From positions 1-32,762 of the forward strand of contig MHOO01000012.1 in the NCBI GenBank assembly GCA_001820095.1: a DNA stretch of 32,762 nucleotides, in the 5' to 3' direction. Positions within the stretch are counted from its first letter, which is position 1. Each line of letters starts with the position of its first letter. This document shows positions 11,984 to 17,407 of this stretch, in pieces. This DNA is from Candidatus Staskawiczbacteria bacterium RIFCSPHIGHO2_01_FULL_39_25 (GTDB taxonomy: Bacteria > Patescibacteriota > Minisyncoccia > Minisyncoccales > Staskawiczbacteraceae). The translations under genes and the position numbers were made by a program. The notes below the pieces were generated by a model. The model saw only the letters and a list, made by a program, of their open reading frames with translations. It searched no databases and was not told where the DNA came from.

Positions 11984-12181
11984 CTAGTATTCACTGCTTT
12001 TAGGTCTTTTGCTTGGGGTATGAGTTTTTAGGGGAATCATAGCGTTAGTAAATCGCACCTGCGAATTTATATGATTGCATGAGGAGCATAAAAATGCTCC
12101 CGTATTTCGGTCAACGTCGGTATCCTGGCACTTTAAACACTTCTTTAAGTTCTGTTCTTTTTTTACTAGTTTCTTGGTCAT
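11984..12181 (-). CDS. Small zinc-ribbon protein
   Basis: 65 aa with two CxxC pairs (CLKCQDTDVDRNTGAFLCSSC); strong SD on the minus strand (TTGGAGGGATTCTGCG-ATG). Confidence 0.65.
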   Translation of the reverse strand: MTKKLVKKEQNLKKCLKCQDTDVDRNTGAFLCSSCNHINSQVRFTNAMIPLKTHTPSKRPKSSEY

Positions 12182-12219
12182 CGCAGAATCCCTCCAAAAA
12201 GAGTGCTTTCAAAGAACTA

Positions 12220-12491
12220 GGGGGTGTGGGACTCGAACACGAACCAGCTTGAGAAGCGAAAAAATGAGATAATTTCAATATTTCTTGCGACGAAATATAG
12301 CTGTGGCTCTACATTGAGGAGCAAAAACGAAGAAATTAGCCATTTGTTCGCTTCCCTTCGGGCTCTCGTATATTGCTTATCTTCTGCGTATTCGGAGCTC
12401 AACGATGCCTAAAGCATCGTTTCACTCCTCAATCCTTGAATACCAAGCAATATACGAGAGCTCAATTGATTCTGTTCGAATCCCACACCCC
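12220..12491. repeat. Multi-stem structured element with tRNA T-arm/acceptor-like inverted ends
   Basis: Terminal arms GGGGTGTGGGACTCGAACA (12221-12239) / TGTTCGAATCCCACACCCC (12473-12491), one mismatch; inner arms CTCTCGTATATTGCTT (12363-12378) / AAGCAATATACGAGAG (12445-12460); apical ACGATGC-ctaaa-GCATCGT. Confidence 0.8.
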
Positions 12492-12562
12492 TACCCCTTA
12501 ATAATATGTTATGTAATTTTTATAATAACGTCAATATGCTTGTAGAAAAGTTTCAAAATACG

Positions 12563-12575: not shown

Positions 12576-12869
12576 ATGATTAATATATTTGGAGCTATCG
12601 CCTCAACCGTTGCGATGATATCAATCCTGGTGGGCCCGATAAGCCAGATAATAAAAAATTACAAAAGAAAAAGCTGTGAAGGGCTGTCTTTCTTTTTTGT
12701 GCTATTGCCGTTTTTTTCCTACATTGCTTGGGCTAGCTACGGAATATCTAAAGATGATTTTTTTCTTTACTTTACCCAGGTCCCAGGGTCAATATTTATG
12801 CTGGTAATATTAATCCAGTTTTTTGTGTATAAAAAACCAAAAAAGAAAGATTCTGGGGCAGAACTCTAA
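12576..12869 (+). CDS. SemiSWEET/PQ-loop family small transporter
   Basis: 97 aa, three predicted TMs, VGPISQIIKNYKRKSCEGLSFFFVLLPFFSYIAWASYG. Confidence 0.75.
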   Translation: MINIFGAIASTVAMISILVGPISQIIKNYKRKSCEGLSFFFVLLPFFSYIAWASYGISKDDFFLYFTQVPGSIFMLVILIQFFVYKKPKKKDSGAEL

Positions 12870-16363: not shown

Positions 16364-17407
16364 GTGAATATAGATTTTGAAAAATATACCGGTATTGCCG
16401 TGTTAGTGCGCCTGGGTGCCGTATTTTTTATCTTTGCGTTATTTTTAGGAGGGACAACCATGGGAATGCAATGGTTCTCTCATAGTCTCGGAAAATTTTT
16501 TCTTTCACAAGTAAGCAATAATGAAACCGTCTTTGCGGGAAATTTAGAAGTAAGCGCTTCAAATATTCCTGCTCAAAATCAGGAGGATTTAAAAATGACC
16601 GAGAATGCATTACCGTTACGGAATTGGCAAATAGAAGATTTAATCATAGGAGCGGAATCTGCAATATCAGCTGAAGTTAGCCGTAATCCAGAAATAGAAA
16701 CGGCAAAATTTTTGTTTAAAAAAAATGAAGAGAAAAAATTGCCCATAGCAAGCTTATCAAAATTAATGACCGCGTTAGTGGTGTTAGAAAAATACCCGTT
16801 AGACCAAAAAGTTACTATCAGCCAAGAGGACATGGTTCAACTGGGCGAACAAGGTAGCTTGAAAGCAGGCCAAGTGCTTTCTGTTAAAAACCTTCTTTAC
16901 ATAACCCTTATAGAGTCTAGCAACAGGGCGGCTTATGCCCTTTCTGAAATAATGGGCACCCAGAATTTCGTTAGCTTGATGAATGCTAATGCAAAGGCAC
17001 TGGACCTTGCCAATACTCATTTTGAAGATACCACAGGCCTTGATTCAAAATCATATTCAACTGCCGAAGACCTTATTGTGCTATCAGCACACTTATTTGA
17101 AAAATACCCGCTATTTAAAGAAATCATAAGCTTTAAAGAGTTTAATGTGTATTCAGAAGATGGTACCTTTCACCATACGCTAATAAACACTAATAAATTT
17201 TTAGGAGAAGTGCCCGGTGTTATTGGCGGAAAAACAGGGTGGACTGATGAGGCTCGCGGATGTTTTCTGGTCATTCAGCATTTACCCAATCAAACAGGAA
17301 ATTTAGCAGAGAAAAACTACTTGATACATATTATTTTAGGCACCGATAAGAGGTTTGAAGAAATGAAAAAAATGATTGATTGGGTGCATACGGCATACAA
17401 CTGGTAA
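16364..17407 (+). CDS. D-alanyl-D-alanine carboxypeptidase (S11 family)
   Basis: SLSKLMTALVVLEK (SxxK), SSN, KTGWT motifs; N-terminal TM; GTG start. Confidence 0.9.
   Translation: MNIDFEKYTGIAVLVRLGAVFFIFALFLGGTTMGMQWFSHSLGKFFLSQVSNNETVFAGNLEVSASNIPAQNQEDLKMTENALPLRNWQIEDLIIGAESAISAEVSRNPEIETAKFLFKKNEEKKLPIASLSKLMTALVVLEKYPLDQKVTISQEDMVQLGEQGSLKAGQVLSVKNLLYITLIESSNRAAYALSEIMGTQNFVSLMNANAKALDLANTHFEDTTGLDSKSYSTAEDLIVLSAHLFEKYPLFKEIISFKEFNVYSEDGTFHHTLINTNKFLGEVPGVIGGKTGWTDEARGCFLVIQHLPNQTGNLAEKNYLIHIILGTDKRFEEMKKMIDWVHTAYNW

Follow-up and report, generated by a model that had tools for sequence, protein, structure and literature searches.

RUP of pneumococcus and other bacterial MITEs are miniature, palindromic and non-autonomous, and their ends match those of a resident insertion sequence; in classical MITEs it is the ends that are conserved. 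Bacterial MITEs have been reviewed (PMC10969869). The Correia repeat enclosed elements of Neisseria (CREE/NEMIS) are small and ORF-less, have inverted ends of about 26 bp, occupy TA (sometimes CA) sites and have a strong potential to form RNA stem-loops, with a mover that is undetermined (PMC2649163). In REPINs, the REP-derived units associated with RAYT, two inverted hairpins make up one mobile unit (PMC3116915). Long hairpins at the tips of 16S and 23S stem-loops are a feature of rRNA intervening sequences, and the rRNA genes of CPR bacteria carry many short inserts that are ORF-less, intron-less and uncharacterised (PMC11270868).

The three-armed element of roughly 270 nt at positions 12220-12491 of the window (the whole stretch of 32,762 nucleotides analysed here) shares properties with all of these. 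We consider that it is probably a non-autonomous palindromic mobile DNA element (MITE/REPIN-like), previously unnamed; searches of Rfam 15 and of open-access literature gave no description of the family. It resembles Correia elements and REPINs in the way it works, but lacks the defining feature of REPINs (RAYT) and that of classical MITEs (shared ends). All the listed properties of the Correia elements recur here; CREE, however, are mostly 104-108 or 153-157 bp long with a few defined end variants, whereas the ends of the present element vary almost freely yet stay complementary, and the Correia family is defined by a sequence of its own, which our element does not share. Compared with REPINs, the hairpins are much longer, there is an extra outer stem, the flanks are TA and several carriers have no RAYT. 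In contrast to RUP and other MITEs, no resident insertion sequence with matching ends was found and, unlike rRNA intervening sequences, the element lies mainly outside rRNA genes.

Structure of the element in the window

The element is abutted by TA at both ends and, with its neighbours, is made up as follows.

11984..12181, - strand: neighbouring small ORF of 65 aa with zinc-ribbon-like CxxC pairs, outside the element (ORF list)
12218..12219, no strand: left flanking TA, putative target-site duplication (sequence; TA frequency in 63 copies)
12220..12248, no strand: left arm of the outer stem, or terminal inverted repeat, pairing with 12466-12491
12253..12354, + strand: hairpin B, family core (folds; match to covariance model R1)
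12362..12461, + strand: hairpin A, inverted counterpart of hairpin B (perfect base stem; family-wide inverted-copy test)
12466..12491, no strand: right arm of the outer stem, or terminal inverted repeat, containing the tRNA T-arm-like GTTCGAATCCCAC
12492..12493, no strand: right flanking TA, putative target-site duplication (sequence)
12576..12869, + strand: neighbouring MtN3/PQ-loop (SWEET-like) gene, outside the element (Pfam PF03083 and PF04193)

Folding confirmed the multi-branched structure. RNA folding of 12218-12493 gave z scores of -11.3 (+ strand) and -13.6 (- strand) against 200 shuffles, none of which equalled either value, and DNA folding of the element gave -10.4. The initial annotation had described outer arms of 19 bp; these are present at 12221-12239 and 12473-12491 with one mismatch, C/A on the + strand and U/G on the - strand, as are the inner arms it had described, hairpin A having a perfect base stem of 16-17 bp (12362-12378/12445-12461). 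R1, a covariance model covering 216 positions of the core, matches 12249-12465 with 184.9 bits. The initial annotation had also judged the element not to be an ordinary tRNA, and we agree: ARAGORN found 0 tRNA genes in the window, a search of Rfam 15 that included group I/II introns gave no family above cut-off for the element, and the D-arm and anticodon arm of a cloverleaf, intron-containing or otherwise, are absent.

The surrounding genes encode a Mur ligase, the 65-aa ORF, the SWEET/PQ-loop protein and tyrosyl-tRNA synthetase. The 65-aa ORF has a strong Shine-Dalgarno site and matches no Pfam family.

Copies of the element and their insertion sites

In the 743-kb genome to which the window belongs (G000), BLASTN located six full-length copies and one stem-only remnant, and a search with R1 raised the count to 8 copies. 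R1 copies occur patchily in the genomes of relatives (15 of 58) and in 8 of 381 genomes sampled across the phylum. A degenerate 25-mer, scanned against 85,462 species represented by one genome each, matched 22 stretches, whose titles are Staskawicz-, Azam-, Portnoy-, Harrison-, Berkel- and other CPR/Patescibacteria, one being titled merely 'bacterium'. Carriage by phages, plasmids or viruses was considered and rejected, as, at the sensitivity used, nothing in the phage, plasmid and IMG/VR collections matched.

The architecture was measured in 63 full-length copies with a measurable outer stem, all from related Patescibacteria. All but one are 265-284 nt long, and in each an outer stem of 26-31 bp encloses two inward hairpins, in most cases recognisable as inverted copies of one another, the arrangement that forms the mobile unit in REPINs. 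Hairpin B matched the reverse complement of hairpin A better than 30 shuffles in 36 of the 63 copies and matched it as a direct repeat in 1. Each hairpin carries a conserved purine-rich internal loop between its stems (CAAGGCGCGACGAG / GAGCAACGAAGA). Since the two arms are inverted copies with the same loop, the covariance model matches nearly all elements on both strands. The copies are short, dispersed and effectively non-coding, as MITEs are, with longest contained ORFs near shuffled length (median 47 aa, slightly longer than the 38 aa in shuffles). They also have terminal inverted repeats; what they do not have is an end sequence common to the copies and to an autonomous parent.

Several copies have unusual surroundings. 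A stem-only derivative (L008:1479-1532; G000:C4:about 16458-16516) retains both outer arms, lacks the 216-nt core and directly adjoins a full copy that has another outer stem. Arm B of L006 (G000:C9:11056-11263) and of L016/L026 (G037) contains small hairpin repeats of other kinds, so several palindromic repeat families appear to coexist and to insert into each other. In G004, an unrelated and longer palindrome (ACTGACCTTTCACACTTAACTTTA...) has L161 at its centre, and L160 lies within a dispersed CGTCATTGCGAG...CTCGCAATGACG repeat. L028 (G008:C37:3004) breaks a reading frame resembling msrA about 18 codons in, with another msrA start immediately downstream.

Element-free sites were sought by comparing the joined flanks of 27 copies with 13 genomes of the genus. 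Sister species have the same genes without the element, which shows that the element inserts. The clearest cases have one TA when empty and TA on both sides when filled: L012/G008 (empty GGATTAAAAG, GGAT-TA-AAAG; filled GGATTA[element]TAAAGT) and, by comparison with a paralogue, L160/G004 (TCTAGA when empty, TCTA[element]TAGA when filled). The empty site of L080/G003 is GGGTTAACTG. For L162, L164, L165, L166 and L014 the gene or gene edge is uninterrupted in the element-free site and the junctions are decayed or ambiguous, those of L165 and L166 being equally compatible with no duplication. Directly outside the stem, TA is found on the left in 26 and on the right in 31 of the 63 copies, against a background of 6.1%, and is preceded by a pyrimidine; the consensus is Y-TA-R. 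Both TAs are present together in 13 of the 63, and identical 2-nt flanks are not in excess (17 observed, 15.4 in permutations). With one or other TA so often lacking and identical flanks at the permutation level, duplication of the TA rests on few sites. Decay of the flanking TA was tried as a measure of age and rejected, stem mismatches not rising with decay (rho -0.07). Given this and the two-sided identity no higher than in permutations, the age argument for correction in place is suggestive only.

The dispersed copies, their constant architecture, the element-free gene sites and the flanking TA together lead us to a non-autonomous palindromic mobile element, one of the possibilities that the initial annotation had raised.

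Arm pairing and the rival explanations

Between copies the outer stems have a median identity of 54%, and copies inside a single genome (G009) already differ in their ends. Within a copy, the two outer arms match at 93% (1,572 of 1,693 positions), and they have therefore changed in concert. In the core, RNAalifold found double changes at 38 of 56 predicted pairs. Both the homologous copies in relatives (15 of 58 genomes) and the covariation on which the first reading of the sequence had staked itself are thus present, and the compensatory changes at first sight made a convincing case for RNA function. Where pairing is required in RNA, one-strand mismatches are expected to be GU and rarely AC. 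The outer stems have a GU:AC ratio of 60:37 and the core, with two columns that are always G-U omitted, one of 91:79; pooled, the ratio is 151:116, compared to 25:0 in the tRNA stems of the same genomes (p 2e-6). One strand is thus not favoured in the way that a functional RNA would require. The slight excess of GU over AC in the elements (p 0.04) leaves room for a weak RNA role. Orientation relative to co-directional gene pairs is random (24:19). The little strand bias and the random orientation point to pairing at the level of DNA rather than RNA. Template switching is known to homogenise the arms of inverted repeats and to mimic compensatory change (PMC8604942, PMC8794818, PMC7202029). The closest pairs of copies differ mostly by single, uncompensated changes, so pairing would be restored slowly or only at transposition.

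It follows that a structured non-coding RNA, or a cis-regulatory leader or terminator of, for example, the neighbouring zinc-ribbon gene, which the initial annotation had offered as a second possibility, is very unlikely. The very stable fold, the extensive covariation and the location just 5' of that small ORF favour it, but the wobble changes with little strand bias, the near-palindromic symmetry that lets the model match both strands, the random orientation relative to genes (rRNA copies too occur in either orientation), the patchy presence with element-free sites and the lack of an Rfam family all disfavour it. We find an element or relic derived from tRNA, also suggested at the outset, scarcely credible. 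The likeness of the ends to tRNA 3' ends is real: 19 of the 63 outer stems have 10-16 exact nt in common with the 3' region of a tRNA, against 22 of 1260 shuffles, nearly always around the T-loop (GTTCGAATCC), and in the right arm of the window copy there is a 13-nt identity between the family's end and tRNA-Ser(tga). As the element is palindromic, the sequence resembling a tRNA 3' end terminates both strands. However, the likeness is limited to about a third of the copies, the ends of the other two thirds are unrelated to tRNA, no copy has a D-arm or anticodon arm, and ARAGORN was negative. The tRNA likeness marks a sub-family and is not the basis of the element's movement or folding; a tRNA origin of the ends was rejected for this reason.

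The rivals that accept mobility differ in the enzyme they call upon. One candidate is a DDE insertion sequence that targets TA (IS630/Tc1-like or IS5/IS427-like): the element would be an ordinary MITE left behind after loss of the transposase, and its ends would vary simply with age and among several sub-families. The TA beside the insert and the dispersed, ORF-less copies with inverted ends agree with such an origin, which we nevertheless regard as doubtful, because it is the interior of this element that is conserved, its ends being variable even inside G009, and because among carrier relatives IS630 (PF13358) is present in G004 only and DDE_Tnp_1 is absent from many carriers, among them G000, G015, G018 and G278. 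A giant REPIN, moved by RAYT (Y1 HUH) through single-stranded DNA, would account for the two inverted hairpins with conserved 5' feet (TTTAG/TTGAG); the topology and a recognition based on folding match REPINs (PMC3116915), and a Y1 gene is about 2 kb away from one copy, G038:C4:51896. Y1_Tnp is, however, absent from G000, despite its 8 copies, and from G004, G015 and G030, no copy was found at the 30 Y1 loci examined, and the flanking TA differs from the single 5' tag of REPs, which makes this origin unlikely. RAYT, IS630 and DDE_Tnp_1 were each rejected as the mover since each is lacking in several carriers, and the searches for Y1, IS630 and DDE_Tnp_1 gave no autonomous partner or parent.

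Returning to a non-autonomous palindromic mobile element, we suggest that the gene-less unit would insert at TA (Y-TA-R), leaving TA on both sides, and that its folded DNA (a single-stranded hairpin or a cruciform) may be recognised by an enzyme acting in trans. Processes at the level of DNA would keep the arms complementary, whatever their sequence; template-switch repair of quasi-palindromes and selection at each transposition are candidates. More tentatively, the family may represent a class of mobile DNA with ends that are recognised by folded shape instead of sequence, in which any outer sequence is allowed as long as the arms pair, pairing is restored in place on DNA, and the conserved internal hairpins carry the motif of a putative CPR enzyme. 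The family adds a mobile repeat that looks active to the reduced genomes of CPR bacteria. It is also a clean natural case of mobile DNA palindromes with strong covariation that probably does not reflect RNA function, and it calls for caution in covariation-based discovery of non-coding RNA.

Copies in rRNA genes

One G009 copy is inserted in the 16S gene at exactly the GCAA tetraloop of helix 6, a site that is empty in G001, G003, G005 and G006 (GGGGCC-GCAA-GGCACC). L019 and L169 are homologous copies from two genera, inserted antisense in 23S rRNA, and differ by several double changes; L102 occupies a spacer between 16S and 23S. Insertion targeted to hairpin loops was suggested by L029, L027 and the 16S helix-6 loop but rejected, since the flanks were not more prone to form hairpins than TA sites taken at random (Fisher p 0.13, Mann-Whitney p 0.87). 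The rRNA copies are few among many insertions, and survivorship is the better reading of the positions in 16S and 23S. Some of the short inserts in CPR rRNA genes that have neither ORF nor intron may be explained by this family, which offers them a likely origin (PMC11270868); if recognition is by shape, elements of this class would likewise be one source of the non-intron inserts. The same 16S helix-6 loop holds other, apparently unrelated palindromic inserts of roughly 130-190 nt in G000, G004, G008 and G037 (L123, in the G000:C3:110508 region, L124, L121 and L128).
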